45,706 nt of DNA from a virus. This document shows positions 21-45,635 of this stretch, in pieces. Both the position numbers and the translations under genes were made by a program. The notes beneath the pieces are model-generated. The model saw nothing but the letters and a program-made list of their open reading frames with translations, searched no databases and was not told the DNA's origin. Where the stretch lies: positions 1 through 45,706 of the IMG/VR virus record IMGVR_UViG_3300025154_000162, one strand, 5' to 3'. The first letter of the stretch is position 1, and every line of letters begins with the position of its first letter.

Positions 21-3000
21 ATGGCAGTTATTCAATTACATCCGCGCCAATTACCAATTTTTGAAATTACAGGTAGTGGTTTATATCTTAGTGCAAGTCA
101 AATAATTGTTGGGGCGGGTGAGGGAATTGGAGTAAGTGGTTCACAAGTTAGAGTAAATCAAGGGCCGGGTATTACAGTAAGTGGCTCTACAGTGGGATTA
201 CTTACTCCCGGTACGATTTCTTCAAGTAGCGTGAATTCAGCATTAAATAGTCATACTCACGCATTAAATATTTTTAATGCGGTTTTGCCCGTAACTATTG
301 TTCCCGACGCAACTGGTTCTGGCGGTTCATCGGTAATGGCCGCAAGATTAGATCACACACATCCAATTTTGGCTGGCACTCCATTTAGTGTTTCTGCATC
401 TGCAACCAATTATGAAGGAAGTTCCACTTCTTTTGCTAGGGCAGATCATACACATTTTGTTAATGCTTTCAATCCTGAAAATCCAATGGCGATTGTGCCA
501 GATGCAAGCGGAAATTCTGGTTCTATCGCAATGGCGGCGAGAATTGATCATGTTCATGCCATTACTGCCGCTGTTGCAATAGGATTATCGGGGTCATCCA
601 CTAATGCAGAAGGTGGAACAAGCTATTTTTCTCGCTCTGATCATACACATCAAATAGCTTGCTATTCCGATGTTAGCCTTCCAATTAGTGCCATTATTAA
701 AAGCGATACATCGGGAGATATTAAATTACATAAATTAGAGGCAACAGATAGGATAACTGTTCCTTTAATCAACACAAATGCTGGCATTTCTCTTTCAATC
801 GCTCCCGATCAAGATTTAAATTTAAGTCCATCTGGTAGTAGGGTTAGATTAACTTCTCCGGTAAGAATTCAATCCGATCATTATGTAAGTCAAACTACAG
901 GTTGGGGAATTTCTTATGCTGGTGGAGGTGATTTTAGATATCTATATACCGATGAATTACACGCTAGAGCATTTATTGTTGATCTAGAAGCGGTTAGAGC
1001 GGGTATTCATGGTGTATTTCCATCTGCTTCTGTGTTGGCTACTGATTTTATGGTTCCTGCCGCGGGAGCAAGTTCTACATTAGTTGTTGAAACTTTTAAA
1101 GGTTTTAATTCTTATCGTGTATTTTTAGATAACGATATTGTAAATATTCGTAATTTTTCTCGTTCGGGTTGTTCTTTAACAATTGCTGATTGCTATGGTG
1201 CAGTAACCTGGGTATCAACGGATTTAACAAATAAAACTCAAACGTATACTTTTGTACGTTCTGCATCTCCTAATAGTGGTATGGCAACTTCTGGAAGCAC
1301 AATTCTTGCGGGAGCAACGGTTCCTGATTATGGCATATCTGGAAATGGCTATTTAGAATCAAATGCCATTGATGGATATCGTGGGGAAAATTCTCCTTAT
1401 AACCAAACAGTAACTTGGGTTAATCATCCTGCTACTGGAAAAACAGTTAATACTCGTTTAGGTAATTTATATGGTATTTTTGCATCTTCCGGCGAATATG
1501 GTTTATATGCTGGTAGCGGGGTTACGGATGCTTCAAGCTACTTAAGAATTAGTAATCAATTTATCGAGGGACATAATTTACCTATTCGATTGTATTCAAG
1601 TGCATCAAGAGTTATTGCTATAGAACCTAATTCGTCTAATCCCTATATTGCAATAGGGTATCCGATTCCTACTGATTTTGCAAATCAAAACGGGGTGTGG
1701 GCAGGTAGAAGTAGTGGGGTTTATAAGATGCACGTGGGGAGTGTATCTGCTGGTTCTCTTGTAAAAGGATGGGCATGGGATGGTGATAATCTAGTAATTA
1801 ATGGTAATTTAACGGTTGGAGATGGTAATTTAAATTATGGTATAACTTTAAATAATGTTCTATTATTGTCAAGATTTGATGGGCCAACTCCTTATGCTAC
1901 AGACTATACAGGTACGGCAACAAGTTTACAGGGAGATGCGGCTACATTAAGCGGAGGGGTAATTTTCCGACCCGGCAAGTTTGGTAAAGGGGCGCAGTTT
2001 GCAGAAGCAACTATAAACCAGCATCCAAATCCAAGCGGTGAAACAAATGCAAGCTATTATGGTCAGGTTATAGGAACTGAAACAATCGCTCGAATCACAA
2101 CGGATGCTTATATTGGATTGTCTTGTATTAATGTCGCGTGTACTGGAGGCTCTAATTCTGAAGGCGTTCTTCTAACTGGTTCTGTGGCTGGTGGATTAAT
2201 GGCTGCTAGTGCTAGTGCGGCAAATACTTTTTCTGCATATCTTCGTGCTTCTGTGCCAGTTTCACTTATTTTGCTGATTCAGTGGTACACAGATGCGGGA
2301 ACGTATATTTCAGAAACTTATGTAACGAAGGCTGTAACTACAGAGTGGGAAAGATATGCTATTACCGCTACTGCTCCAGCAACCGCCACAAAAGCCCGCG
2401 TACAGATTCGTAAACCTATTGCTCATGGATCATCGTGGTACTTTAAAGTTGATGCTGTGCAGTTCGAAAATAAAGATTATGAAACATCGTATTGTGACGG
2501 TAGTCTTGGAACAGGGCATTCATGGAATGGAACGGCACATGCATCGACCAGTAGTCGAACGGCTACAGTTTTAAGTTATCCCGTTTCTGGGAATATTGAC
2601 TTTAATCAAGGTTCTGTTGGTTTTTGGATTTATTGGAATTCTTCAGCGGCTACTTTCAAGCGGATGTTCTATGCTTACTACGACGCTGACAATTATATAA
2701 GCATTCTTTCCGATGCTACCAATGGTCTATATGCTTATGGCGAATGGCAAGGAACCTTATGGAGTTCTTCTGGAGGAGCATTGCCTATGTCTTCAGGATG
2801 GCATCATGTTGTAATGACCTGGGCCGTGGGTGGAAATGTAGTCGTATACCTTGACGGAGTCGCTTCGAGTGCGTTGCCAGTTTATCCCGACATTGACTCT
2901 ACATTGTTGCCTACAACGTTTTATGTAGGTGGAACAAATAGTTCTGCTCAAGTTAACACTGTTATGGATGAATTCTTTATTCTTGATCGAGCTTTAGACG

Positions 3001-5096
3001 CAGATAGTGTTAGGGCGATTTATTATAGCAGTACTCCAATTACTATTAATAGCAACACTAGTAATTTATATTTGAGAGATAATAGTGTTAGTGGTTATGT
3101 GATGGGTAATGCTCAAGGGATATTTGGATATTCTTCTATAAGTGGCTCTGAAGGTTCGGGAGCATTTGCTTTAGTAACATCTACTGTTACACTAGGAACT
3201 CCTTTTGGAGGATCATCAATTACTTTAGATACTGGCGATTTACTTATTGGTAGTGTTTCAGTAAATAAAAATAATTTTTTATATGATCATAGTGCAGGTA
3301 CGCTTTCTCTGCGTAATAATACAACAAATTTAATAAATTTAAATGCAATTGGAAATATCACGGTTGGAAACATTTCAACTGAACATATTTTTATTGATTC
3401 AGGAAGTGTTCAAATTAAAGATGGTGCAAATGTCTATACTAATTTAGTAGGTGGGATTCTTACGCTTGGCTTAGTGAGTGGTGGAGAATATGTTACCGTA
3501 GATGGTACAAATGGTATTAAGTTATATGGTAGTGGTTCTCCCAATATTCAATTGAGTAATGCTGGTTTAGTTACTGTTGGGGATTCCTCTTATAATCACT
3601 TATTAATGTCATCAAGTGCAGTATATATTAAAAGTGGTTCCAACATTCATACAAATCTAACAAGTGGTTCATTATTCTTAGGCTTACAAAGTTCTGGCGA
3701 ATATATTAGCATTGATCCTAATAATGGTTTAAGAATGTATGGTAATAATCAACTTACTGTACAATTATTGAATACTGGAATACTTTCATTAGGTGATACG
3801 TCTAATGATCATTTGCTAGTATCTCCAAGTGCTATATATATTAAAGCTGGAAATGATATTTATACAAATCTAACATCTGGTTCTTTAATATTGGGTTTAG
3901 CCAGTAGCGGAGAATATATTAGTATTGATCCTAATAATGGTTTAAGATTATATGGTGGTGGTAGTTTAAACGGTCAATGGTTAAATAATGGTGATATTAC
4001 ATTAGGGTCGGTGGCCGCAAATAAGTCTAACTTATTTTGGGATGTAAGCGAAGGAAGATTGAATTTTAGAGGTGGCTCTAGTGGTGATTTTACACAAATT
4101 TATGTAGATACAGAGGGTACAATTAAGGCCGGGGATATAACTATTTCGTCCGCTGGAATGCTAGTAGATAACGGTGCAGATAGTCTAACAAGCACTGTTT
4201 TGAAATTTATAACAAGTAGCTATGCTCCGTTTTATGGACAGATTATTGGATATGGTACTACTCCTGGTGCATATTCTAGGATGATAATGCAATGTAATAA
4301 TACTACAGGAAATAATTCATCCAATCTTTCATTAGTAAATTATGCTGGCGGGCATGGAATAGCGAGTCTATCAATAAATAATACAGATCATGATGATCTA
4401 TATTTTACGATGGCAAATGAAGTTGCTCTTGCTGGTCATGGTGGATCAGGAGAAGGGCTTTTGTTTTCGGTTGGGAATAATCCCGCATGGTCTATAATTG
4501 AAAATACTGGATCGTATACGGCAACTATTTATGGGGATCAAATAGCTTATGAAGATCAAAGAGTCGGTAAAGGCTTACACGTAGGAGCTATTGACTATTC
4601 ACCTTATGATAATGACATTACTGTTGACGGTGGCATATCTGCTGGTTGGGCGGGTGATCCAGGTGTAGGCAATTTTTATTATACAGGAAGTTTAGTTTCT
4701 TTTAAGAATTCAACTGAATATGTTGGATATATTTTTGTTCCTCTTACTGTACCATTAACATCAACGTCTTGGGATGGGGATTCGTTTAGTACTACTGCTA
4801 AAACAAAAATTGATTTATCTGCTGTATTTAGCACACCTGCTAAAATTAAAGCAGTTAAAGTATATGTTGGCGTAAGAGATAGCGATTCAGCGGGTACGGA
4901 TACATATTTAATTCTTGGCCCTACTGATACTGCCGATTTAGGAATTCCGTTTTCACCACTTCCAGTAAATGATAGGTGGTATCGAGGAGGAGATGATATT
5001 CCTTGCGATAGCAATGGTGATATTTATTATCAAATAGCGGCTAGTGGAGCGGGAACTTTTGATGTTGTATTACAAATATGGGGATATTATATTTAA
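21..5096 (+). CDS. Large tail fibre / adhesin with LamG-like domain
   Basis: A 1691-residue virion protein, probably a tail fibre or receptor-binding protein at the distal tail. The first ~215 residues carry four DHTH/DHVH motifs (near residues 112, 142, 177 and 208), a pattern common in phage tail proteins. About residues 670-840 look like a carbohydrate-binding beta-sandwich. Residues ~860-1003 are a LamG/concanavalin-like fold, with GFWIYW, WHHVVMTW, VYLDG and DEFFILDRAL visible. Then come three 71-residue repeats (annotated separately) and a C-terminal beta-rich domain of ~115 residues that may be the tip. The start has a good AAAGGAG site at 2-8. Family knowledge links such domains to host glycan binding; the receptor is unknown. 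Its position upstream of the tail tube gene, far from Dit and Tal, is unusual for a receptor-binding protein. Confidence 0.8.
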   Translation: MAVIQLHPRQLPIFEITGSGLYLSASQIIVGAGEGIGVSGSQVRVNQGPGITVSGSTVGLLTPGTISSSSVNSALNSHTHALNIFNAVLPVTIVPDATGSGGSSVMAARLDHTHPILAGTPFSVSASATNYEGSSTSFARADHTHFVNAFNPENPMAIVPDASGNSGSIAMAARIDHVHAITAAVAIGLSGSSTNAEGGTSYFSRSDHTHQIACYSDVSLPISAIIKSDTSGDIKLHKLEATDRITVPLINTNAGISLSIAPDQDLNLSPSGSRVRLTSPVRIQSDHYVSQTTGWGISYAGGGDFRYLYTDELHARAFIVDLEAVRAGIHGVFPSASVLATDFMVPAAGASSTLVVETFKGFNSYRVFLDNDIVNIRNFSRSGCSLTIADCYGAVTWVSTDLTNKTQTYTFVRSASPNSGMATSGSTILAGATVPDYGISGNGYLESNAIDGYRGENSPYNQTVTWVNHPATGKTVNTRLGNLYGIFASSGEYGLYAGSGVTDASSYLRISNQFIEGHNLPIRLYSSASRVIAIEPNSSNPYIAIGYPIPTDFANQNGVWAGRSSGVYKMHVGSVSAGSLVKGWAWDGDNLVINGNLTVGDGNLNYGITLNNVLLLSRFDGPTPYATDYTGTATSLQGDAATLSGGVIFRPGKFGKGAQFAEATINQHPNPSGETNASYYGQVIGTETIARITTDAYIGLSCINVACTGGSNSEGVLLTGSVAGGLMAASASAANTFSAYLRASVPVSLILLIQWYTDAGTYISETYVTKAVTTEWERYAITATAPATATKARVQIRKPIAHGSSWYFKVDAVQFENKDYETSYCDGSLGTGHSWNGTAHASTSSRTATVLSYPVSGNIDFNQGSVGFWIYWNSSAATFKRMFYAYYDADNYISILSDATNGLYAYGEWQGTLWSSSGGALPMSSGWHHVVMTWAVGGNVVVYLDGVASSALPVYPDIDSTLLPTTFYVGGTNSSAQVNTVMDEFFILDRALDADSVRAIYYSSTPITINSNTSNLYLRDNSVSGYVMGNAQGIFGYSSISGSEGSGAFALVTSTVTLGTPFGGSSITLDTGDLLIGSVSVNKNNFLYDHSAGTLSLRNNTTNLINLNAIGNITVGNISTEHIFIDSGSVQIKDGANVYTNLVGGILTLGLVSGGEYVTVDGTNGIKLYGSGSPNIQLSNAGLVTVGDSSYNHLLMSSSAVYIKSGSNIHTNLTSGSLFLGLQSSGEYISIDPNNGLRMYGNNQLTVQLLNTGILSLGDTSNDHLLVSPSAIYIKAGNDIYTNLTSGSLILGLASSGEYISIDPNNGLRLYGGGSLNGQWLNNGDITLGSVAANKSNLFWDVSEGRLNFRGGSSGDFTQIYVDTEGTIKAGDITISSAGMLVDNGADSLTSTVLKFITSSYAPFYGQIIGYGTTPGAYSRMIMQCNNTTGNNSSNLSLVNYAGGHGIASLSINNTDHDDLYFTMANEVALAGHGGSGEGLLFSVGNNPAWSIIENTGSYTATIYGDQIAYEDQRVGKGLHVGAIDYSPYDNDITVDGGISAGWAGDPGVGNFYYTGSLVSFKNSTEYVGYIFVPLTVPLTSTSWDGDSFSTTAKTKIDLSAVFSTPAKIKAVKVYVGVRDSDSAGTDTYLILGPTDTADLGIPFSPLPVNDRWYRGGDDIPCDSNGDIYYQIAASGAGTFDVVLQIWGYYI
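3384..4022 (+). repeat. Three tandem 71-codon repeats inside the tail fibre
   Basis: Histidines at protein residues 1122, 1193 and 1264 mark three copies with an exact 213-bp period. Each copy runs through a YIK/QIK, YTNL or HTNL, LGL, SGEY, NG-(I/L), LYG/MYG and G-(D/N)-x-T/S-x-G pattern. The second and third copies share EYISIDPNNGLR. Exact spacing without indels fits a rigid beta-helical or triple-stranded shaft segment; that structural reading is inference. Confidence 0.85.
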
Positions 5097-8075: not shown

Positions 8076-8990
8076 ATGATTAGAGATAAAATTAGCGGAA
8101 TATATTGTATTTCAAATATTAAAACGGGTAAAAGATACATAGGTTATGGAACTAATCTTAAAATAAGATGGAATGGTCATAAGAGGCAATTAAGAAAGAA
8201 TATTCATAATAATCCATATTTACAAAGTTCATATAACAAGTGGGGAAAAGAAAACTTTGAATTTTCTATTATTCAGGAAATAAATGAAAGCACAGAAACT
8301 TTGAGATTAATGGAAATTTATTGGATTGTTTATTTTAATTCTTATTATAAAGATGGTTGCGGATATAATATGACTTATGGGGGAGAGGGTACATATGGAT
8401 ATAAACACACCGATGAACAGATAAAAAGAAATTCCGATGCAAAAAAAGGAAAACCATCTTGGAATAAAGGTATTCCTATGTCAGAAGAAAGTAAATTAAA
8501 AGCTTCACAATCTCATAAAAACTTATCTGAAGAAACTAGAAGAAAACAATCTTTAGCTAAAAAGGGTAGACCATCTAACAATAAAGGTAAAAAAGCATCA
8601 GATGAAACCAGAAGAAAACAATCTCTTGCTAAAAAAGGAAAACCTATTTCGAAAGCGGCAACTGAAGGTTCCATTAGGGCGCTTAAGGGTGTTCCAAAAT
8701 CAGAGGAACAAAGGCGGAAAATGTCTGAATCACAAATATTTACCAAGAAAGGGAAGAATCCAAGTAGTAAATATATTGGTGTTTATTTTGATAAAACTAA
8801 AAATAAATACAGGGGTCGCATATCCTATGAAGGCAAAGATATTGCCGTTGGCACTTTCCCAACAGAACTCGAAGCTGCTTTAGCCTATAATGAAGCCGCA
8901 ATAGAATTTTACGGCTGGAAAGCAAAATTAAACGATATTTCCAAAGATGAAATTGAGAAATTGTGGGAGATGCAAATAGAAACACAGTAA
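8076..8990 (+). CDS. GIY-YIG homing endonuclease with NUMOD3 repeats and AP2 domain
   Basis: 304 residues. The N-terminal ~95 residues are a GIY-YIG nuclease: GIY at 8-10, RYIG near 20-23, and an Arg in the RWNGH helix. Residues ~105-225 hold about five NUMOD3-type DNA-binding units (repeated SEE-x-RRK-x-SLAKKG and NKG patterns). Residues ~228-285 form an AP2-like domain (KYIGVYFDK, YRGRI, AALAYNEAA). It is free-standing between the tail tube gene and a holin-accessory-like gene, and no group I core is visible on either side, so it is a homing gene inserted between virion genes rather than a clear intron ORF. The start is preceded by AAAAAAGGAAAA. GIY-YIG enzymes of this kind make site-specific breaks that spread their own gene; the target is presumably the matching junction in related phages. 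Confidence 0.9.
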   Translation: MIRDKISGIYCISNIKTGKRYIGYGTNLKIRWNGHKRQLRKNIHNNPYLQSSYNKWGKENFEFSIIQEINESTETLRLMEIYWIVYFNSYYKDGCGYNMTYGGEGTYGYKHTDEQIKRNSDAKKGKPSWNKGIPMSEESKLKASQSHKNLSEETRRKQSLAKKGRPSNNKGKKASDETRRKQSLAKKGKPISKAATEGSIRALKGVPKSEEQRRKMSESQIFTKKGKNPSSKYIGVYFDKTKNKYRGRISYEGKDIAVGTFPTELEAALAYNEAAIEFYGWKAKLNDISKDEIEKLWEMQIETQ

Positions 8991-12897: not shown

Positions 12898-14237
12898 ATG
12901 CCACCTAGTAATAAATATCAAGTTATAGTTGAAGCGATTGTAGATCAAGCACAACTTCAACAACAATTTTCAAAAGTACAAGCTACATTAAATCAATTAG
13001 CGGCAGGAAGAAAAATTGTACTGTTTGATGATAGAGTAAATCATGAAGCTATTCAAAGTGCAAAAAGAGAAGTAGAAAAACTTTTTGGCGATGTGCAAGC
13101 ATTTGGAAAAGTTAAGATTTTTGAAAGCCCATCGGGAGAAGTGACAGGGGCAATCGTTCAATATCGTGACAAATTGAATTTGGTACAACAAGCGTATTTG
13201 AAAATTGCCGAAAGTGGAGGGAAGTGGGAATTAGCATCTCGTAGTACCGCTCAAAATATTGATCAAGCCCGTAAAGAAGCAGAGAAATTTGCAAAGCAAC
13301 AAGAACAAATGTATCGTTCTGCTTATCAGATGGATCAAGAATATAATCTGAGAAAAGAAAGAATGTTGCGTGAGGCTTATGCTCAAAATGAAAAATTAGA
13401 TCGTCAAAAAGAAATTGCTATTAAAAGGCAAGAATTGGCTCTTGACAGACTGCAAATAAAAAATAAAGATGCTTTTGGAGATAGCGCGGTAAAAGTTGCT
13501 TTAACTAATTATAATAAAATGTTTGACGCATTTAAAAGCGGGAAAGCAACATTAGATCAAGTTAAATTAGCTTTTGGAGATTTGAGTAATTCAGTTGCAA
13601 AATTTAACGATGCGACGAGAAGTGCTAATAAATCTGGACTAAGTTTTACTTCCATGTTGGATGTTGCCATTAAGAAAATCGCTGTATGGGGTATGGGCAC
13701 AATGGCAATTTATGGCACTATGAGAAAAATTCAAGATGGTATACAGTATATTCGAGATTTAAATAAGGAATTGACGAATACTCAAATTGTTACCGGAGAG
13801 AGTAGTCAAAAAATTGGTCAGTTGGCAAGTAAATATAATCAGTTGGCTTTAGAATTAGGGTCTACATCTTTACAGGTAGCTCAATCTTCTTTGACATTTA
13901 TTCGTCAAGGTAAAAGTGCTGAAGAATCTGGAATTTTAGTTAGAAACAGTATGATGATTTCAAAACTTGCTAATCTTGAAAGCGCGCAAGCAAGTGAGTA
14001 TTTGACATCTGTAATGAATGGCTATCAAATGTCTGTAGAAGAAACTACGGGTGCTATTGATAAGATGGTTGCGGTTGATAACGCGGCAGCCACGTCAGTC
14101 GGAGAATTAGCAGAGGCATTAAGTAGAACTAGTTCGGTAGCGCAAACTAGCGGTGTATCTTTTGAGAATCTCGTTGCATACATAGGAACGGTTTCGAGTA
14201 TAACGAGGCGAAATGCTGAGAGTATTGGTGAAGCCTT
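12898..14237 (+). CDS. Tape measure protein, exon 1
   Basis: Encodes residues 1-446 plus two bases of codon 447 of the tape measure protein, which sets tail length and guides DNA ejection. It has an AAGGGAGG ribosome site, a long helical region (residues ~90-190), then the conserved TMP segment with SVGELAEALSRTSSVA, SFENLVAYIGTVSSITRR and ESIGEAFK. The genomic frame runs on to TAA 14335 but the last ~32 codons are intron, not protein: the family motif GEAFK-TIF-x-R breaks off at 14237 and resumes at 15822. Exon 1 ends GCC TT, and exon 2 begins C AAA ACC, restoring Phe447 (TTC). Confidence 0.88.
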
Positions 14238-15821
14238 TAAAAATTTTGTAATACTAATGAATATGTGTTACAATAGATGGAGGCGTTGGGGCATAATAAA
14301 TAATCCCCAAATGAAAATTCTCTTTAATGATTTATAATAAATAATTATAATTATTTATTATAATGCTTGAAAACCCTTTGGCGGGGCAACAAGAACGAAG
14401 CGATTTTAAATTCTGTATTTTATAATTTATATTTTATCTTCCCTTGGAGAAATTATGAGTATTTGTAATTTTTGTGAAATTGAATTTACTAATGTCAGTA
14501 ATAAAAAATATTGTTCCGTTGAGTGTAGAAATAAAGCAAGAAGCAAAAGAGATAGTAATAAATTCGAATTGATTTGCAAGAATTGCAATAAAGAATATTC
14601 TGGTGGTCGTCATAGTAAAAAAAATATTAATAATTTTTGTAGTAAAAATTGTCAACTTAAGTATAGATATAAAAAAGAAAACTTGCAATTATCAAATTGT
14701 AAAATTTGCAATACTGAATTTTATCAAAAACTTTCTAAACATGTTACTTGCTCAGTGGAATGTAGAAATAAAATGATTAAGATAAAAAAAGAGAATAATC
14801 CTTTTTATTATACTTGTGAAAATTGCGGAAATCCTTTTTCTACACCAGATAAAAGACAAGGCAATCATATTTTTTGTTCTCGTGAGTGTAGTACTATATT
14901 TTTTGCTAAACAATCTAAAGTAGAAGTTAAATGTCCCAATTGTGGAAAATTTTTTGAGAGAGCAGGTAACAGAAAAAGAATAATATTTTGTTCGCCTAAA
15001 TGTGGGTACGAACACAGAAGTAAAACATATTTTGGCAAAAATTCTCCAACTTACAATCATGATATTCCTGATGCTGATAGAATTGCCAAATGTCAAAAAT
15101 GTGGAAAGACTTTTGATATTAAATTACGAAAAAAGAAACCTAAATTTTGTTCTAAAAAATGTAAAATTGCATCAATGAATACTAGTCTAACAAAACCGCA
15201 TATTAAAATCTGTGATATTCTTTGTGAAATGAATTTAAAATTTGAAATAGAATATTCTATTAATGGTTTTTTATTAGACGTTTATATTAGTGATGATATT
15301 ATGATTGAAATAATGGGAAAATATTGGCATTGTGATATAAGAAATTACAATGAGCCAAAAAATGAAAAACAAATTAAAAATATAGATAAAGATAAAAGAA
15401 AAAAAGAATCAGTTTTTAATAAAACAGGTGGATATATTTTATATCTTTGGGAAGATGATATAAATATGCGTCCTGATTTATGCAAAAAATTAATTGAAAA
15501 ATATGTTCGAAGTAATGGAAAATTAAAAAATTATCATTCAATGAATTATTTTTTAAATAATAATTTATTGAAACTAAACGATAACGTTTTAGTTCCATTT
15601 TTTGAACAATAATTTTTTGAAATCGCACGTCGAGAGACTAAACAAGAGAACATCATGTAAAATGATGATGTGATAGTCCGATCTACAGATATGCCAATAA
15701 AAATTAAACTGTAGAAAATAGGTCAAGTGTAAAGACACTTTAAAGAAGTACCTATTTCGCCATATTGATATTGTAAATATGGTCAGTAATACAAATAACA
15801 TTTGTATGAAAGTAACAGATG
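14238..15821 (+). mobile_element. Group I intron (1584 nt) in the tape measure gene
   Basis: The 5' site follows U14237 and the 3' site follows G15821, the two base rules of group I splicing, and joining restores frame and the conserved motif. The guide sequence GAGGC (14280-14284) pairs with exon GCCUU, giving a U-G wobble exactly at the cut (P1). An extra 9-bp hairpin (UUGUAAUAC/GUGUUACAA) sits in the P1 loop, and a UUGGGG/CCCCAA hairpin follows. The 3' core shows AGACUA (15635-15640) and UAGUCC (15674-15679) as P7 strands, with a CAUCAU/AUGAUG P8. P9-type hairpins (AAAUAGGU/ACCUAUUU, CCAUAUU/AAUAUGG, AUACAAAU/AUUUGUAU) lie before the 3' site. A 30-nt palindrome covers 14333-14362. The endonuclease ORF sits in a peripheral loop. 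Confidence 0.88.
14455..15612 (+). CDS. Intron-encoded EDxHD (Vsr-like) homing endonuclease with six zinc knuckles
   Basis: 385 residues. The N-terminal 240 residues hold six C-x2-C...C-x3-C knuckles, starting at Cys4, 41, 82, 121, 160 and 213. The C-terminal nuclease (about 243-352) has the EDxHD pattern of the I-Bth0305I / very-short-patch-repair family: FLLDVYI (Asp275), IEIMGKYWH (Glu285, His292), a Lys/Asp-rich IKNIDKDKRKK segment and GGYILYLWEDDI. The fold nicks or cuts DNA with divalent metal. The knuckles are presumably for long-site DNA recognition, and the expected target is the intronless tape measure sequence around the GEAFKTIF codons. The ribosome region is CCUUGGAGAAAUU. It is transcribed within the intron, so splicing and translation compete. 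Confidence 0.85.
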   Translation: MSICNFCEIEFTNVSNKKYCSVECRNKARSKRDSNKFELICKNCNKEYSGGRHSKKNINNFCSKNCQLKYRYKKENLQLSNCKICNTEFYQKLSKHVTCSVECRNKMIKIKKENNPFYYTCENCGNPFSTPDKRQGNHIFCSRECSTIFFAKQSKVEVKCPNCGKFFERAGNRKRIIFCSPKCGYEHRSKTYFGKNSPTYNHDIPDADRIAKCQKCGKTFDIKLRKKKPKFCSKKCKIASMNTSLTKPHIKICDILCEMNLKFEIEYSINGFLLDVYISDDIMIEIMGKYWHCDIRNYNEPKNEKQIKNIDKDKRKKESVFNKTGGYILYLWEDDINMRPDLCKKLIEKYVRSNGKLKNYHSMNYFLNNNLLKLNDNVLVPFFEQ

Positions 15822-18800
15822 CAAAACCATTTTTACTCGAATGCAAAATATACGATTGGGGGATTTAGACGAAGAAGGGCAATCTATTAATAATGTAGAA
15901 GAAGCATTAAAAAGAGTTGACATTCAGTTAAGAGAAAACGATACAACCTTTAGAAACATGGAAGATGTTTTAGCTGATGTAGCAGATAAATGGAAAACAT
16001 TTGATGATGTTACACGAGCCAGTATAACTCAAGCTCTGGCTGGTACGAGACAAGCCAACATGCTGATAGCATTACTTGACAACTGGTCTATGTCACAAAA
16101 TTTACTTACCGAAGAAATGGAATCCTCTGGACTTGCCGCCCAAAGATTCGGTATATATATGGAAGGTCTAGAGGCAACCACTAATAAATTTACTGCGACT
16201 TGGGAAAAAGTAGTTCAAGATACCATTACTGAAGAATTGGTAAAAAAATTTCTTGAGTTTGGTATTGTGTTATTAGAAGTTGCAGATAATTTGGGGGTTC
16301 TTAATATAGCATTAGTAGCTTTAGCTACTTTCATGATAACTAAACTTGCTTTGGTTATACCCGGATTAACTAGTACAATATATACATTAATTACCGCGTT
16401 TATCAGCTTAACTGGTACTGTCACTATGACTAGTACGGCAGTAAATGCGCTGTCTATTTCTATGGGAGGAATGGCGTTAGGTTTAGCCGTTGTTGGTTTA
16501 ATTGCTTTATTTAATAAATTAAATGCTTCAGCAGTTGAAACCTATACTAATTTTGAAAAACTAAAACGTCAAACAGACGATAATAAAAACGAACTTTCTA
16601 GTTTAGCCAAAGAATATGAAGCATTAGCAAACAAACAAAATAAAAATTCAGATGATTTAATTAGATTGCTTGATATACAGACAATTGTAAATACTAAATA
16701 TGGCGGGTTAACTGAGGGTATTACATTATATTCAGATGCAATTGATAGGAACAGTCAAGCGATTGATGAAAATATCGAATGGCTTAAAGAAAAAGCAAAA
16801 TTTGAAGAAATAGAGTTTATTAATAAGAATAAACGCGCTTATGAAGAACAAAAAAAATTCCTAGAAGCAAAAACGATGAGTGGGGCTGGCCCTACATGGC
16901 AAAGAGTTAATTTATATGGCACTCCCGAAGAACAATTAACTCAACTAGGTAAATATTTAGAAACTCATAAGGACATTAGCGGATTATTAGAAAAAGAATA
17001 TGGAATTAGAAATGATGAAATTTCCGCTGCTAAATCTCTCATAATCGAATACGAACATTATGTTAATGTATTAGCTGATATTTCTGTTGGTTGGCAAGAT
17101 ATTGGTGTAAGTAGAAGGGGGGCAATGGAATCAGAGGTTGATGATTGGAAAGATGTTGGCGGTAATGTTAATCTTCCAAAACCATTAACTATTGCCCCTC
17201 AAATTGCGGGGGGGTTTGGTGATTTATCTACAATAATTACAAATTTAAATACTGAATTAAAAGTTTATTTAGATTTATTAAGCAAATCGCAAAGTGGACA
17301 ACAATTATCTGCTGATGACATTGCGGCATTATCTGCTGTCAATAAGGATTATACTGACTTTCTTGTACTTGAAGGGGATCAATTAGTACTAAACGAAGAA
17401 GCAGTAAGGGCGTATATTCAAGCACAAGCAGATTTAGTTGCTTTGCAAGCTAGAGGTGTTTCTGAAGCTAATCCTTATAGTGCTGAATTGTATATACAAG
17501 CAGACCTTGTTGGTGCATGGGTCGAGATGATTAAAAATGATTTAATTCCTGCTACCGAAGATGCGCGCAATGAAATTGCTGGTCTTTTCAGTGATCTTGC
17601 AGCTTCTTTAGATACAAGTATGACTGATGCTCGTGATAGCTATATAGAAAGTCATAACGAACTTGTTGATAAATTAGCGGAATTAAGAGTACAAATTATG
17701 AGGGTTGAAGCACAGCCTTTTTCTGAAGAACAAAGGGCTGAGTTAATTAAATTAAAAGAAGAATTTAACAATACATCTAGGGCGGTTGATGCACTTGCTG
17801 CTGAACATGAATTAGCGACACGACGCATCATTTATGGAATGATGTTACAACGTGTTATGCAAATGGATTTAAGTCGTCTTCCTCCTGCCCAGGCTCTAGC
17901 AATACAGCAAGCGGCCTTTAAAATGATGGACGATATTGGAACAGCCTGGGGCCTTATTGATGCAAATACTTCTGCTGTTGTTCAAGGCATGACCGAATTC
18001 GTTACATTGGCTATGTCAGGCGCGGGTGAGGAAGCCATTGCTGTTTTAGATAGAGTTAGATTAGCGGCATTGGCGGCGGCTGGTGATTATTATATTCGTT
18101 TTCATGTAACAGTAGACGATGAAGGCATTGCATATGGTGCAATGGGTTATGATTGGTCAGATTCAGGAAAATCAACCGTTCCCGAAAAACCTAAAGGTGG
18201 CGGCGGTGGTGGTGGCGGAGGCGGGGCAGAAAAAGCCAAAGAAGAACCTACCTATTCCGGTGCAAACCTCTACCAAATGATCATCAATCTTATTCGGCAA
18301 GAAAAAGAAGCTGAAAAAGAATTGATTCGAGAAAAGCAAGATGCTCTCCGTCAGGAACAAGAAATACTAAAGCAACAGCAAGACGCTTTAGATAAACAAC
18401 TAGAAGATTATGAAAAGATAATCGATGCTCGTAAAGAAATTCTCCAAACACAAGAAGATGAATTAGATTATCAAGAAGAAATTGCGGATAAAAATAAGTC
18501 TATTCAAAAACTTCAAAGAGAATTAGCAATACTTGCATTAGACGATTCAGCGGAATCGAAAAAACGTCAATTAGAACTACGAGAAGAATTAGAGGAAGAA
18601 CTTTCCGACTTAGACGAAACTCAAAGAGAACACGAAATAGAATTAACCGAAAATCGTCTTGATGAAGAGTATGAATTATATAAACAATATATTGAAAACC
18701 AAAAGACTTTATTGCAAACCCAATTTGACTTATTAGATCAAGAATATGATGTCTTGCAAGATACCATTGATGCAATTGATGAATTTCTAAGTAAGTCTGG

Positions 18801-19614
18801 TTTAATTGGTCAAGCGGCACTAGAACGAATGGCGCAAATGGGGCCGGATTTGTATGAAGAATTGGTGGCATGGAATGAAGTTTACGGTTCTGGCATTGAA
18901 GAAGATGTTGTTCGTGCGTGGAATGAAGCAGTAAGAGCATTGGAAGAATACAATAATCTTTTGGATGTTATTCTTGGAAAAAGCGATTTTGGTAGTGGTA
19001 AACCTTATATTCCCGGCGATAGTGGTAATGACGGTGAAACTCTTGGAAAAACCAATCGTGGTTTTAATCCTGAGATGATTACTGGTGGATTCAGGGCTGA
19101 TACCGGAGAGGGCTTTTCTCCCGAAATGATTACAGGAGGATTTAGGGGTAATGGTAGAGAAGGTTTTTCTCCTGAGATGATAACTGGTGGATTTAGAGCC
19201 GATCCTACGGATGCGCCTGAAATGATTACGGGTGGTCGTAAATACGGCTTTAATCCTGAGATGATAACTGGTGGATTTAGGGGAGATGGTGATTCTCGTT
19301 CTCCCGAAATGATTACAGGTGGTCGCAAATATGGTTTTAATCCTGAAATGATAACTGGAGGATTTAGAGCCGACACGTTCTTACGAGGGGATAGATTATC
19401 GTCGTTATTGAATTCTTTAACTACAAATATAATTGGGGGGAACATAAGTTCTGTTGGAGATATTGTAATTCAGAATTTAATTAATGTTGAAGGTAATCTA
19501 GATGAAAATGTTTTAGGAGATGTTAGAGTCGTGGCTAACGAGGTTATCAAACAATTAAACAATAGTTTAACAAAACGTGGTTATACACGAGGAGCGCAAC
19601 TATTTCAAACATAA
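15822..19614 (+). CDS. Tape measure protein, exon 2
   Basis: Supplies the last base of codon 447 and residues 448-1710. It opens with the conserved TIFTRMQNIRLGDLDEEG and EALKRVDIQLRE segment and the ALAGTRQANMLIALLDNW motif. Hydrophobic stretches near residues 590-680 could cross the cell membrane during DNA ejection. About residues 1239-1248 is a ten-glycine run, followed by a long coiled coil (~1263-1433) and seven PEMITGG repeats (residues ~1530-1627). The joined coding length is 5133 nt. With the usual ~0.15 nm per residue rule, 1710 residues predict a tail near 255 nm (inference). An apparent ATG at 15802 in the same frame lies inside the intron and is not the true start. Confidence 0.88.
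19069..19383 (+). repeat. Seven PEMITGG peptide repeats in tape measure protein
   Basis: Copies begin at 19069, 19120, 19171, 19216, 19255, 19303 and 19342, so periods are 17, 17, 15, 13, 16 and 13 codons. All seven keep PEMITGG exactly; five continue FR and two continue RKYGFN. Codons vary synonymously between copies (CCT/CCC, GAG/GAA, ATT/ATA, ACT/ACA/ACG), so protein sequence rather than DNA identity is what is conserved. The spacer residues are short, Gly/Asp/Arg-rich and flexible. Confidence 0.92.
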
Positions 19615-26297: not shown

Positions 26298-26870
26298 TTA
26301 TTCTCCATATGATTGATGAGGGCAAATACCGTAATGATATTTTGCTAAATTACAATTCCAACATAAAACTTGTAATTCATAGCCAATATCAAAGTTTTTT
26401 CTTACTAGTTCTGAATATAAATCAGTTCCTACAAATCCTCCAGGTTTTGATTTTCTATGGTTATTTCCGTCGTTGTTGACATGATCTATTGTTAAAAATT
26501 CTAATCTTGATTCTCCACAGCAAGTACATTTTCCTCCGTAGTGTTCAATTACTTTTAATTTTATATTTCGTCTTTTATTTTTTGATTGTTCTTTTGAACA
26601 TTTTTTACAAGTTAAAATCCTCTTTGCTTTTTTCCCATATTTTACGGTATTTTCTTCTGTTAGTAAATTTCCACATATTTTGCAATTTATTTTTAATAAA
26701 GCTGTAAGTTTATTTCTGATGGACAACGTGCAAGATTTACAATAAAATTGTTTTTTATTTTTTATAATTCTGTTAAATCTACTTAATTGAACAAATAAAT
26801 CTTTTTTGCATTCAACGCACTTTGCTTTTTTGCATCTATATCTTTTATATATGATTATTTCATTATCCAT
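26298..26870 (-). CDS. HNH homing endonuclease, free-standing
   Basis: 190 residues. The C-terminal half is an HNH domain of the type common in large phages: YGGKCTCCGE, LTIDHVNNDGNNHRK, a LYSELVRKNFDIG helix and LQVLCWNCNLAKYHYGICPH. The N-terminal ~95 residues carry further Cys pairs (CVEC, CKSC, CKIC, CKKC) that probably form two zinc knuckles for DNA binding. It fills the gap between the ribonucleotide reductase (7 bp) and mazG (4 bp) with no clear ribosome site, so it looks like an insertion at that junction. It may target sequence in or near the reductase gene, as seen in other phages with endonucleases beside this gene. Confidence 0.85.
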   Translation of the reverse strand: MDNEIIIYKRYRCKKAKCVECKKDLFVQLSRFNRIIKNKKQFYCKSCTLSIRNKLTALLKINCKICGNLLTEENTVKYGKKAKRILTCKKCSKEQSKNKRRNIKLKVIEHYGGKCTCCGESRLEFLTIDHVNNDGNNHRKSKPGGFVGTDLYSELVRKNFDIGYELQVLCWNCNLAKYHYGICPHQSYGE

Positions 26871-26877
26871 TGTGAGT

Positions 26878-29502
26878 TCATTGTTTATCGATAGAAAAAT
26901 TACACGAAGGACATTTTTTAATATCTTTTATAATAATAAGTGGGGTTTTACAACTAGGGCATAAATCTTTCTTGATTGATCGAGGACTCAAAACCTCTAC
27001 TTTTCGGGAACCGTTACGATATACCGCTAATCCTTTTGCCCCTTTTTCCCATGCCATAATAAACGCTTTTCCAATGGTTTCACGATGGGTATGAGTGGGG
27101 AAATTAATTGTTTTTGATACACCTGAATCTATATGTTTTTGTGCGGCTGTAAGTATATCAATATGCTCTTCCCAAGTTACTTCTATTCCTCCATCGGCAG
27201 AGACAGCACAACGAAAATAAGGTTGTTGTGCAAGATCATTGACAAAAGTATATGTTCCTGTCTTATCATTACGTACAGTTATTTCGCTAAAAATTGGTTC
27301 AATTCCTGATGAACATCCGGCAATAATACTTGTTGTACCAGTAGGGGCAATAGTCATAAGGGTGATATTACGCCGAGGAACAGGAAGCATTTGACACATT
27401 TTAGGAATGCCGTATTTTTGTCCTAATTCAACAGATTCTTTTTCTGTCACTTGGGAAATAAAAGAAAGAATTTTTTCTAATTCTTTAATTGATTCTTCTG
27501 AACCATATGCGATTTTACGTAAAAGACAATAATCGGCAAATCCCATTATTCCTGTTCCAATTGCTCGATTTTCTTTTGCCCATTTTTCGATTTCAGGTGT
27601 GGGATAAGCGGTTTTATCAATGACTTGATCTAAAAATTCTACTGTTAATTGTGTGGCAACTTCTAGTTTTAGATAATCTATTGAATCTGTTTTGCAATTG
27701 TAGAATTTAGAAATATCTATAGATGCAAGATTACATACGCCATTAAAAGGAAGTGGTTGTTCTCCGCAATTGTGAACTATAAAACCGTTGGCAAAATTAT
27801 AATGAACATCATTGGAAAAATCCCAAACTTCTTGTTCTCCAACATTTTCAATTTTAATAACCTTTAATTTTTTATTATATTTCTTATCAAAAGTTTTTAT
27901 TCTGCTATTTTTTATCGATGAATAAAACCCAATGTTTTTATAAAAATTTAGTGAGTTTCTAGGCGCAATTTGAACGTTATAACTTTCTCTTGATGTATAA
28001 TCCCCATTCTTCCAATGAATTTTCACTGGTTTATTTCTTACAATCCAAGATTGAATTTCAAAAGATGCTAATATAATTTGTATAATTTTTGCCGTTTTAT
28101 GGCAAGTTGTTTTTAATGAAATTTGGCTATTAGATATAGTTACACTTCCATTAGCTTCAAATAATCCTTTTAAAAAAGAACCAAGAAATTCTGTGTTTTT
28201 TGTTAAAATATTATCGGGAATTTCTCTATCGTATACTCTGCTATTTAAAAAGTCTAATTGATATTCTAATTTGTCTTCAAGTGTTTTTCTATTGATGTAG
28301 AATGCGCCGTTGTTTTCTTGATAAAATCCATAATGTTTTAATAATTCTGCAACTTCAAATTCTTTTTCGGGATTAATTTTAACAGATATTCCTTGTTTTT
28401 TTCCTGCTAGAAATCCATCTCCAAATAAAAACCCTAGTAGTAATGCGTTTTTATTTATGCTTGAAAGTTTGCGATTCCCTAATCCCCACTTAATTGATTT
28501 ATTTAAGCTGTCTTTGCTATCAATAAAACTTTCATCTTCGAGCATGACTTTATGATCGGGAGTAACAATTATTTCATGACCAGCATTTGTAATAAGTTTA
28601 ATGCATTCTTTTATTCCGGTTTTCCAAGAAGTAAATGTATCGTGGTTATAATGGGAGATTTTATTAATCTTGTCATTATCTAGCATATATGTATCTTTAT
28701 GTATGCAAGGATTTGTAGCTAAAATTTCTTGTCCTGTATATTTGTATGGAGAATCATCAATGCGATCCTTATAAAGCATTCCTGGTTCTCCATTTCTCCA
28801 TGCACCCTCTACAATTAAATTAAAAATATCTTTTGCTTTATACTCTTGATATTTAACACCATTAAATTCTGTCCAATAAGTTTCATCGTTAATTACCTTT
28901 TGCATGAAATTATCATCAACCATTACTGAAATATTGGCATTAGTGATTTTGTCTTCTTCTGATTTTGCGGTTATAAATTTAATCAAATCAGGATGATATA
29001 CGCTCATAACAAACATAATTGCCATGCTACGAAATCCCGATTGAGTTAAAGCATCTGCATCATGAGAAATTGTATCGGCAAATTTTACAGCCCCGCCAGC
29101 ATAGCCATGTGTACTACCAGCAACTTTTGATCCTTCGGGCCGAATTTTACTCAGGGTTGTTCCACATCCTCCACCTTTACGAGCAATGAGAGCAAAATCT
29201 AATTTAGTTTTATAAATCCCCTCAATTGTATCTGGAAAATCTACAACAAAGCAAGCACATAATCCTCCTGTAGATTTTCCAGCATTGACTAAGCAAGGGG
29301 AATTTGGAACAACGTAAGTATTTAGAATTAATTCGTATAATAATTGTTTATTCTCATAGTCATCGTCAAAAAGATGGTTGATAACTCTTTTAACAACATC
29401 ATCCCATGTTGTTTCACCCTCAGAAAAATATCTCTTTTCTAAGATACTTTGAGCCACTTTAGAAATTGGTTTTATTTGTGGAAATAGTGATTGATATGTC
29501 AA
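26878..29502 (-). CDS. nrdJ: Class II (B12-dependent) ribonucleotide reductase, intein-containing
   Basis: An 874-residue precursor; after intein removal, 561 residues. It reduces ribonucleotides to deoxyribonucleotides using adenosylcobalamin. Seen: the redox Cys in GGLCACFVV (82/84), the GGGCGTTLS region, NP/CGEQPLPFNGVCNLASIDI, APTGTTSIIAG and a C-terminal Cys motif CPSC...CPSC typical of NrdJ tails. The N-x-C-x-E triad (Asn264, Cys579, Glu581 in precursor numbering) is split by the intein. The start codon is TTG, chosen because a perfect AAAGGAGGT lies nine bases upstream and no ATG fits. No ATP-cone is visible at the N-terminus, so overall allosteric control may be missing. It is flanked by dNMP kinase and an HNH gene. 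Confidence 0.88.
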   Translation of the reverse strand: MTYQSLFPQIKPISKVAQSILEKRYFSEGETTWDDVVKRVINHLFDDDYENKQLLYELILNTYVVPNSPCLVNAGKSTGGLCACFVVDFPDTIEGIYKTKLDFALIARKGGGCGTTLSKIRPEGSKVAGSTHGYAGGAVKFADTISHDADALTQSGFRSMAIMFVMSVYHPDLIKFITAKSEEDKITNANISVMVDDNFMQKVINDETYWTEFNGVKYQEYKAKDIFNLIVEGAWRNGEPGMLYKDRIDDSPYKYTGQEILATNPCIHKDTYMLDNDKINKISHYNHDTFTSWKTGIKECIKLITNAGHEIIVTPDHKVMLEDESFIDSKDSLNKSIKWGLGNRKLSSINKNALLLGFLFGDGFLAGKKQGISVKINPEKEFEVAELLKHYGFYQENNGAFYINRKTLEDKLEYQLDFLNSRVYDREIPDNILTKNTEFLGSFLKGLFEANGSVTISNSQISLKTTCHKTAKIIQIILASFEIQSWIVRNKPVKIHWKNGDYTSRESYNVQIAPRNSLNFYKNIGFYSSIKNSRIKTFDKKYNKKLKVIKIENVGEQEVWDFSNDVHYNFANGFIVHNCGEQPLPFNGVCNLASIDISKFYNCKTDSIDYLKLEVATQLTVEFLDQVIDKTAYPTPEIEKWAKENRAIGTGIMGFADYCLLRKIAYGSEESIKELEKILSFISQVTEKESVELGQKYGIPKMCQMLPVPRRNITLMTIAPTGTTSIIAGCSSGIEPIFSEITVRNDKTGTYTFVNDLAQQPYFRCAVSADGGIEVTWEEHIDILTAAQKHIDSGVSKTINFPTHTHRETIGKAFIMAWEKGAKGLAVYRNGSRKVEVLSPRSIKKDLCPSCKTPLIIIKDIKKCPSCNFSIDKQ
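27769..28707 (-). mobile_element. LAGLIDADG intein in ribonucleotide reductase
   Basis: 313 residues (precursor 266-578), from CIHKDTYML to FANGFIVHN, followed by a Cys +1 residue. Block B is VTPDHKV. Two LAGLIDADG helices are present: LLLGFLFGDGFLAG and FLGSFLKGLFEANGSV. Terminal Cys1, His-Asn and +1 Cys are all intact, so self-splicing should work. The +1 cysteine is the predicted thiyl-radical cysteine of the reductase. Confidence 0.93.
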
Positions 29503-33824: not shown

Positions 33825-35387
33825 TTACTCCTCTGTAATTATATCACCAAAAAAAGTTGGAAACTCGCTTTGAAATTCTCGTAATAATGGAATTACTAAT
33901 TCTCGCATTTGAGGATGCGCCCTTTTAGAAGTTCTAAGTTTTAGAAAGTGCCTCCATTCTCGCAAATTCATAGTTTGAAATACTTCTGTTTTTAATGAAT
34001 TAGGAAGTACGGAACGTGCTTGTTCTGGCGTAGCGCCTTCTTCAAGCAATGCTATATACGTTAATTCAGCATCTTCACAATGTTCTTTCCAAAGCAAATA
34101 TTGAATAGAATCTCTTTTCCAAAAGAAAGGTTCAATTACTGTGATTTCTCTATTGAATTTGTCTTTACTATAGTTACAATTATGTACAATTATTCCATTA
34201 GCTACATAATTATGGTTTCTACTGTTTGTTGTTAAGTCATATACTTTACTTTTTCCTTTGTGAGATATTTTAATTATTTTGTCAAAGTAGACATTCTTTA
34301 ATGAGTTATTATGAATACCGCCGTGACAAATTGAGCATACGGTGATTAAATTCGATAAATCATTATTGTATCTATTTTTATCTTTATGATGGACATTTAA
34401 ATTCTTCATCGATCCACAAATTGCACATTTTTCTTCTACGGCTTTATGAAAAGTTCTAATACTTAGTTTTTTTATTCTTTCTTTTCTGTTTGCGGGAATA
34501 TTTTTATTTCCATCCCAATGATATTCTTTGAGAGCGTTTATTTGATTTAAAACAGACGGATTTCCTTTTGAATTTTCTCTAGTTAATCCCTTATTCCAAG
34601 CAGTTTTACCAATATTAAAGTAGCTTCTTGGTTTTGACGGAAGATCAAATTTTTTAACCCATTTTTTTATTGTACTGTGATTATAGCCGAATTCTTTTTC
34701 TATTTGGGTTGATGTTTTCTTTAAAATATTATATTGATAATATAGCCAATCTTTATTTCTATAAAGCGGTTCATTAGTATTAATATTGCTTCCATTTACC
34801 CCTATTAAATCACCAACGTTTAAGTTTTGTATTTTTTTAAATCCGTCATTTGTAAAAATTTCATGATTCGATGTTGCATTTAATTTATATCCCAATTCAG
34901 TTTCTAACTCATATGTGTCCTGAATTTCATTATAGAATATATCTTGAATTGTAGTATAAGTAAAACATCCTGTTTCATAATTAAATTCTTTAATATTTAT
35001 TCTTTTCCATTGTCCATTTTTTGAATCATTTTTTTTATTATATAATTCATCAATACTTAAATCATAATGAGGGTTTTTATAAGATAATTTAGTAGAGCCA
35101 TCTACACAATACCGACTTGATTCTTGAGTAATACTAGCAATTCTATGTCTTACAAGTTCATGCGATACTCCACGGTCACAGATAAATCTTACACTAATTG
35201 TAAAATGTTCAATAACAGATTCGTGGCCGCTTTTAATAATGCTGGCAATAAATTTCTTGGCAGAATCAGATGTAATTCGATCTTCACTTTTATACGCTGT
35301 TCTACCTGCTTTTTCAATGAATACTAAAATTTCTTCTTCGCTGATAATGGGAGTTTCGATTATATAATATGGTTTAATAATTTTCAT
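33825..35387 (-). CDS. thyX: FAD-dependent thymidylate synthase ThyX, intein-containing
   Basis: A 520-residue precursor; the mature enzyme would be 210 residues. It converts dUMP to dTMP using methylene-tetrahydrofolate, FAD and NADPH. The ThyX signature RHRIASITQESSRY (80-93) is present and is broken immediately afterwards by the intein at Cys94. The exteins resume with CNYSKDKFN and end with the dUMP-binding MNLREWRHFLKLRTSKRAHPQ helix and MRELVIPLL. The ATG overlaps the previous gene's stop (ATGA). It supplies dTTP with NrdJ and the dNMP kinase. Confidence 0.92.
   Translation of the reverse strand: MKIIKPYYIIETPIISEEEILVFIEKAGRTAYKSEDRITSDSAKKFIASIIKSGHESVIEHFTISVRFICDRGVSHELVRHRIASITQESSRYCVDGSTKLSYKNPHYDLSIDELYNKKNDSKNGQWKRINIKEFNYETGCFTYTTIQDIFYNEIQDTYELETELGYKLNATSNHEIFTNDGFKKIQNLNVGDLIGVNGSNINTNEPLYRNKDWLYYQYNILKKTSTQIEKEFGYNHSTIKKWVKKFDLPSKPRSYFNIGKTAWNKGLTRENSKGNPSVLNQINALKEYHWDGNKNIPANRKERIKKLSIRTFHKAVEEKCAICGSMKNLNVHHKDKNRYNNDLSNLITVCSICHGGIHNNSLKNVYFDKIIKISHKGKSKVYDLTTNSRNHNYVANGIIVHNCNYSKDKFNREITVIEPFFWKRDSIQYLLWKEHCEDAELTYIALLEEGATPEQARSVLPNSLKTEVFQTMNLREWRHFLKLRTSKRAHPQMRELVIPLLREFQSEFPTFFGDIITEE
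34179..35108 (-). mobile_element. HNH-type intein in ThyX
   Basis: 310 residues (precursor 94-403), from CVDGSTKLSY to ANGIIVHN, with a Cys +1. Block B is ATSNHEIFT. The middle holds a helix-turn-helix-like segment (STQIEKEFGYNHSTIKKWVKKF), a NUMOD3-like TAWNKGLTRENSKGN, and an HNH nuclease (CAICG, NVHHKDKNRYNNDLSNL, CSICHGG). Splice residues are intact. The HNH class differs from the LAGLIDADG class in the reductase intein, so the two were acquired independently. Confidence 0.93.
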
Positions 35388-44858: not shown

Positions 44859-45635
44859 TTAATCCAAGTTTGTCGATTGTTTGTTTTGTTTGATACCATA
44901 TTGTTCATATAGATGTTTTTGAGGGGCAAATTCTTTAAAATATTTTTTTTCAGCATTTAAGCGAGCTATAATTGCATCTTCTTTATTTATAAAAACACCT
45001 AAATGAATAGCTATTCCGTCACAAACTATTCTTGCTCTCCATTTATTTCGTCTTTTGACCCAATCGACTCCAATAAATCCAGACATATTATCAAAACTTT
45101 TACTTATATTTTTTCCATTTTCTTTTGTTACAGCGGTTCTTAAGTTAGATTTTCTATTGTCTAATTTGTTTCTATTTATATGGTCTGTTTTTTTATTATT
45201 ACTTGTAGGGTAAATTAATTTATGCATTAATAAACTTGTAGACGATAAATCATTAGAGATAGTTGTATACATATAACCCCAATTATTTATCCACCAACAA
45301 TAATCTTTTATTTTATCATAATTGTCAATATCAAAATAAAAAACATCATTCGAGTTAGATGAATGACCCATCATTGTATTGTCGCCAATTATTTCATATT
45401 TGTTGTGTTTTTTATTATTTCGAGCTACGATCTTAAATTTTTCTATTCTTATGCACCCACAATTTGTACTTCTGCTAGAAGTCAAAGTTCCTCCTTTAAC
45501 AATTCTTCGTGTTTTATTTTCACAAGAGCATTCACATAGCCATAAAATTTCACCTCTTTTACCTTTGTGGTTTATTTTTTCAATAACTTTCCATCTTCCA
45601 AATATCTTTTCAGTTAAATCTATAAATTTTGGCAT
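44859..45635 (-). CDS. HNH homing endonuclease with zinc ribbon and AP2 domain
   Basis: 258 residues. The first 65 form a Cys-rich DNA-binding unit (FGRWKVIEKI, WLCECSC, SSRSTNCGC). Residues ~100-180 are the HNH domain (LLMHKLIYP, TDHINRNKLDNRKSNLR), and ~183-245 an AP2-like domain (GFIGVDWVKRRNKWRARI, LGVFINKEDAIIARLNAE). It is free-standing directly upstream of the RNA-repair gene, 27 bp away. Its start overlaps a stop codon of the frame running in from the window edge. A group I intron is not visible nearby. It belongs to the same HNH-AP2 style found throughout large Firmicutes phages. Confidence 0.88.
   Translation of the reverse strand: MPKFIDLTEKIFGRWKVIEKINHKGKRGEILWLCECSCENKTRRIVKGGTLTSSRSTNCGCIRIEKFKIVARNNKKHNKYEIIGDNTMMGHSSNSNDVFYFDIDNYDKIKDYCWWINNWGYMYTTISNDLSSTSLLMHKLIYPTSNNKKTDHINRNKLDNRKSNLRTAVTKENGKNISKSFDNMSGFIGVDWVKRRNKWRARIVCDGIAIHLGVFINKEDAIIARLNAEKKYFKEFAPQKHLYEQYGIKQNKQSTNLD

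Follow-up and report, generated by a model that had tools for sequence, protein, structure and literature searches.

Are the two open reading frames (ORFs) at 12898-14337 (479 aa) and 15802-19614 two genes, or are they one gene interrupted by an intron that must be removed from the RNA? Both lie on the + strand of a virus record from IMG/VR that is 45.7 kb long and probably a fragment; the window is the whole of its 45,706 nucleotides. We found that together they encode a single tape-measure protein (TMP). It is very probable, in our judgement, that the most conserved motif of this TMP has been invaded by a mobile group I intron, that splicing would restore the full-length protein and that the intron ORF would drive homing. 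A single TMP split by a group I intron is the only reading consistent with the open frame, with the protein domain, with the ribozyme core and with relatives that lack the intron.

Two reading frames form one tape-measure gene

When 14238-15821 is taken out, the two ORFs fuse into a single open frame of 1,710 aa. The first ORF alone matched PhageMin_Tail (PF10145) with 82.2 bits over profile positions 1-145; after joining, the score rose to 109.7 bits and the match became complete (1-201 of 201; curated cut-off 33.2). The insert was missing from approximately 200 phage records, each with a single uninterrupted match to at least 80% of the domain: the joined segment was covered to at least that extent by one uninterrupted match in 70 records, and the corresponding segment of Microcystis phage MaeS type in one place in 198. 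In intronless TMPs of Psychrobacillus, Enterococcus, Brevibacillus, Lactococcus and Bacillus phages, the alignment runs straight across the junction. The original prediction that two apparent genes are one was thus borne out by the single frame, the completed PF10145 and the colinear relatives, and the comparison with intronless relatives that it proposed showed the insert lacking and the domain whole. Searches for an intronless allele of the window's exact TMP lineage found none, and querying genome contigs with the TMP of the window yielded no host. In the 19005-19445 region (+), towards its C-terminus, the TMP has repeats of the GF-PEMITGGFR type.

12898-14237, + strand: TMP exon 1, with 446 codons and 2 further nt (PF10145 profile positions 1-145)
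14238-15821, + strand: group I intron (1,584 nt), preceded by U14237 and ending in omega-G 15821
14335-14337, + strand: in-frame stop met by unspliced RNA, giving a 479-residue product
15822-19614, + strand: TMP exon 2; its first base finishes the F codon of GEAFKTIF

The intron splits the TMP motif GEAF/K-TIF. Protein continuity by itself permits a few sliding junctions; 14237/14238 joined with 15821/15822 is the sole junction that obeys both group I rules, a U just ahead of the intron and a G as its last base, and by inspection a slide of 1-2 bases either way breaks one of them. The base-exact boundaries proposed earlier therefore stand as the only ones fitting both rules. Assembly error can be dismissed because a second contig, L002 (IMGVR 3300024999_000212), has the insert at the same base; an IMG/VR pattern search for the window's exact site returned four chance matches plus this contig. 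A stop codon in the intron would truncate the unspliced product, as had been claimed, at 479 rather than 478 residues, and it can soundly be inferred that tail assembly depends on splicing.

The intron contains a covarying group I core

The intron has the group I ribozyme elements P1, P3, P4, P6, P7 and P8. P6 and P6a were placed from the sequence, and P2 from sequence and fold.

14280-14284, + strand: internal guide GAGGC, which forms P1 with GCCUU of the exon (14233-14237); the pair at the splice site is a U-G wobble
14286-14310, + strand: P2 hairpin, UUGGGG 14286-14291 with CCCCAA 14305-14310
14318-14322, + strand: 5' strand of P3, UUCUC, pairing with GAGAA 15646-15650
14366-14393, + strand: P4, CUUG 14366-14369 with CAAG 14390-14393
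within 14366-14393, + strand: P5, CCC 14374-14376 with GGG
14395-14397 and 15628-15630, + strand: P6, ACG with CGU
14400-14406 and 15620-15626, + strand: P6a, GCGAUUU with AAAUCGC; the intron ORF sits in this P6 loop
15636-15640 and 15674-15678, + strand: P7, GACUA with UAGUC
15651-15656 and 15662-15667, + strand: P8
15682-15688 and 15709-15715, + strand: P9, which with its subdomains spans 15682-15821

The guide pairing with its wobble at the cut was found as predicted, and the P7, P8 and P9 elements reported near the 3' end could be located (P7 and P8 at 15636-15678, P9 at 15682-15715). The intron terminates in GAAAGUAACAGAUG, an ending shared by many other TMP introns, and its 3' domain is that of other TMP introns too.

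A core pattern built from P7, J7/3 and the opening base of P3 in the window matched 40 viral contigs, many of which carry compact introns with the string CTTTAAT ... GAGACTAAACAAG ... GATAGTCC. The P3 strands pair in all 16 aligned introns, the window included, and four of the five pairs have changed on both sides: UUCUC/GAGAA in the window, and UCUUC/GAAGA, UCCUC/GAGGA, UCUCC/GGAGA, UUUCC/GGAAA and CUCUC/GAGAG in others. None of 500 shuffles matched the P3 covariation score, and slid controls scored far lower. The relatives were fetched with the window-derived pattern, in which the P7 letters and one P3 pair are fixed and so do not count as independent support. One P4 pair has changed on both sides among the relatives, with full pairing in only part of them. 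Rfam scans of the window gave no relevant hit, and the group I model (RF00028) did not reach its gathering threshold there; this silence is uninformative, because the model misses the compact structure relatives as well. A single 7-kb viral contig (L018) has two introns with the same core pattern (823-866 and 2022-2065, minus strand).

The intron encodes a putative homing endonuclease

The ORF in the P6 loop, which the original prediction did not recognise as a homing endonuclease, begins just downstream of a ribosome-binding site visible in the sequence.

14446-14449, + strand: GGAG ribosome-binding site of the intron ORF
14455-15612, + strand: putative homing endonuclease, 385 aa, with Cys-x2-Cys repeats followed by a Vsr/EDxHD-type nuclease domain (approximately residues 246-350)

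At its C-terminus it resembles the I-Bth0305I catalytic domain (PDB 3r3p, E = 1.8e-5), and the ORF matches PHROG 1271 (E = 3.6e-26). Endonucleases of the same family lie inside TMP introns of MaeS and of two further contigs, L142 and L138. The full E, D, H, D set of EDxHD endonucleases was not found in the window protein: D275, H292 and D313 are kept, and the first acid (Glu), present as PEK or PER in the related enzymes of L142, L138 and MaeS, is His249 in both the window and L002. We therefore place the protein beside the EDxHD family and claim no active membership, since loss of the first catalytic acid may mean that the enzyme is inactive or altered. Between the window and L002, dN/dS was 0.24 for the endonuclease, against 0.02 and 0.06 for the TMP exons, values that point to constraint on the endonuclease, weaker than the strong purifying selection on the TMP. 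An AlphaFold model of the endonuclease was set aside as too poor for use (mean pLDDT 38).

We infer splicing in the cell, cutting by the endonuclease and homing as parts of the following explanation. The intron RNA would fold into a ribozyme with P1-P9, cut after U14237 and ligate 14237 to 15822, yielding the 1,710-residue TMP. The P6-loop ORF would supply a sequence-specific endonuclease cleaving intronless TMP alleles, and this cleavage would drive copying of the intron plus flanking exon sequence.

Other mobile elements were seen elsewhere in the window. A ribonucleotide reductase gene (26878-29502, - strand) and a gene for a ThyX-like protein (33825-35387, - strand) each contain an apparent intein with a C...HN-C junction, the latter with an HNH-like stretch; together with the TMP intron these would make three splicing elements in 45 kb. 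Apparently free-standing homing-type endonuclease genes (GIY-YIG and HNH) lie at 8076-8990 (+), 26298-26870 (-) and 44859-45635 (-).

A near relative has a divergent exon block around its introns

The L002 and window contigs are 95% identical over 9 kb. The ribozyme parts are identical at 213/217 and, for the 3' part, 209/209 positions, and are more conserved than the exons; the endonuclease ORF is identical at 1108/1158. Two other contigs, L008 (122 kb) and L009 (20 kb), carry a TMP whose nucleotide identity to the window is 96-100% for residues 1-160, mostly 89-100% for residues 560-1200 and only approximately 47-68% for residues 321-545. In L008, this low-identity exon block, in round figures 50-60% identical between flanks of 96-100%, is interrupted by three introns that differ from the window's but lie in the same domain: those at 1265-2822 and 3486-5003 each have an endonuclease ORF, and the one at 2983-3245 has none. 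All three obey the U-before and G-at-end rules, and their removal leaves 1,711 codons without a stop. A swapped block around introns is the trace expected of co-conversion in homing; recombination of the ordinary kind, with some other cause, may also account for it. The C-terminal TMP repeats also differ between the window and L008.

Alternative explanations

The insertion might instead have fractured the gene, so that each half is translated on its own and the two products then assemble, as reportedly happens in phage Aeh1, where nrdA is split by a free-standing endonuclease. Each half here is a long open frame, and the second has a TTG start at 15802; however, no ribosome-binding site stands ahead of that TTG, and the cut falls inside a domain kept whole in intronless relatives. 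Under fracture there would, moreover, be no reason for the upkeep of a covarying P3, a group I core and exact splice rules, and RNA splicing is documented in the same type of gene in Vibrio phage ICP1 (PMC10448857). We regard a fractured gene as very improbable. Less probable still is that intron activity has been lost and the phage is dead, or that the contig is a defective genome. The first EDxHD acid is indeed missing from the endonuclease, but the TMP exons are under strong purifying selection and the ribozyme is better conserved than they are.

Tape-measure introns cluster in three conserved zones

We surveyed a 297-residue TMP core, with search patterns that span some of the sites and with rule-based junctions, and found 19 introns in 14 TMP lineages; 18 are group I-like and one is a group II intron confirmed by Rfam. 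Among SP-beta-like TMPs, 3/80 were interrupted in IMG/VR, and 6/15 TMPs were interrupted in GTDB genomes. MaeS has a 1,313-nt TMP intron encoding an endonuclease of the window's family, with both TMP halves annotated as hypothetical, and Geobacillus virus E3 has a 304-nt TMP intron, with the parts annotated as N- and C-terminal TMP genes; tail-length genes are in this way miscalled, annotation giving two unrelated proteins. In Cytobacillus gottheilii (L163:5324-6482), one of the interrupted GTDB cases, a single TMP holds three ORF-less introns, one per zone. TMP introns of L160 and L163 exceed the Rfam group I threshold, with 92.9 and 71.5 bits. The MaeS TMP (L058) is 74% identical over 297 residues to the intronless TMP of Cytobacillus horneckiae (L149), a likeness unexpected for a cyanophage that calls the host label into question or raises that of a recent transfer.

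The group II intron, in the TMP of Saccharibacillus deserti (L159:4345-5003), is ORF-less, scores 104 and 62 bits with two Rfam models and sits in the first zone, which group I introns use too. Its automatic junction was rejected as wrong, group I rules having been forced onto a group II intron; under group II rules, NNFAITTQ is restored exactly by inspection.

In nucleotides of the core, the insertions lie at positions 291, 299, 305 (two), 309, approximately 319-323 (two), 409, 447, 459 (six), 467 (the window), 654, 660 and 673; the window site is thus 8 nt from the position occupied by six introns. Eighteen of the 19 introns fall within three short, strongly conserved zones (NEVDN, IGN-LKTI and AGRYQ). 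Mean column entropy at the zones was 0.73 versus 1.45 under random placement (P = 0.00025 for three centres), and 21 intron pairs lay no more than 35 nt apart versus 7.3 expected (P = 0.0006), figures to be read with the lineages being phylogenetically non-independent and the zones having been defined after the data were seen. An intron tree had weak supports and hints at partial grouping by site. We consider it likely that, across phages infecting different hosts, the PF10145-type TMP core is a recurrent landing ground in three zones, entered by group I introns of independent origin and by one or more group II introns, and that homing drags exon blocks along, swapping the conserved middle of an otherwise near-identical TMP as a cassette.

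Comparison with known systems

An intron-split TMP is a kind of gene already published, and is less exceptional than the original prediction implied. In ICP1, three introns divide the TMP gene (gp79-81) into four exons, RNA-seq and RT-PCR having demonstrated their splicing, and the TMP has been named as a frequently interrupted gene (PMC10448857). What the present analysis adds is the pattern of sites and the exon-block swap; our search of the open-access literature found no description of recurrent TMP zones. ICP1 resembles the window in that its TMP gene is interrupted by introns with endonuclease genes, but those endonucleases are HNH, whereas the window's is of Vsr/EDxHD type. We rejected the idea of shared insertion sites with ICP1, whose TMP gives no match to the window's TMP core profile, so that its sites are not comparable.

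The window protein shares its C-terminal nuclease domain with I-Bth0305I and differs from it in having a Cys-repeat DNA-binding array and His249 in place of the motif Glu. The TMP introns of E3, MaeS, C. gottheilii and others interrupt the same PF10145 core in or near the same three zones, and several have the window's 3' domain; their positions are shifted by a few to approximately 30 nt, and several are without an ORF. For experiments on homing, occupied sites can thus readily be paired with empty ones.

Group I introns of Bastillevirinae and Twortvirinae occupy nucleotide and DNA metabolism genes only and carry endonucleases, including one Vsr-type group in terminase, and why phage introns occupy metabolism genes is a question raised in the same work (PMC11878797). 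That a structural gene is invaded repeatedly, and at the motifs it conserves best, speaks for introns targeting sequence that is indispensable and conserved, and against a role for them in switching replication on. Unlike the metabolism-gene introns of those subfamilies, the window's intron lies in a structural tail gene.
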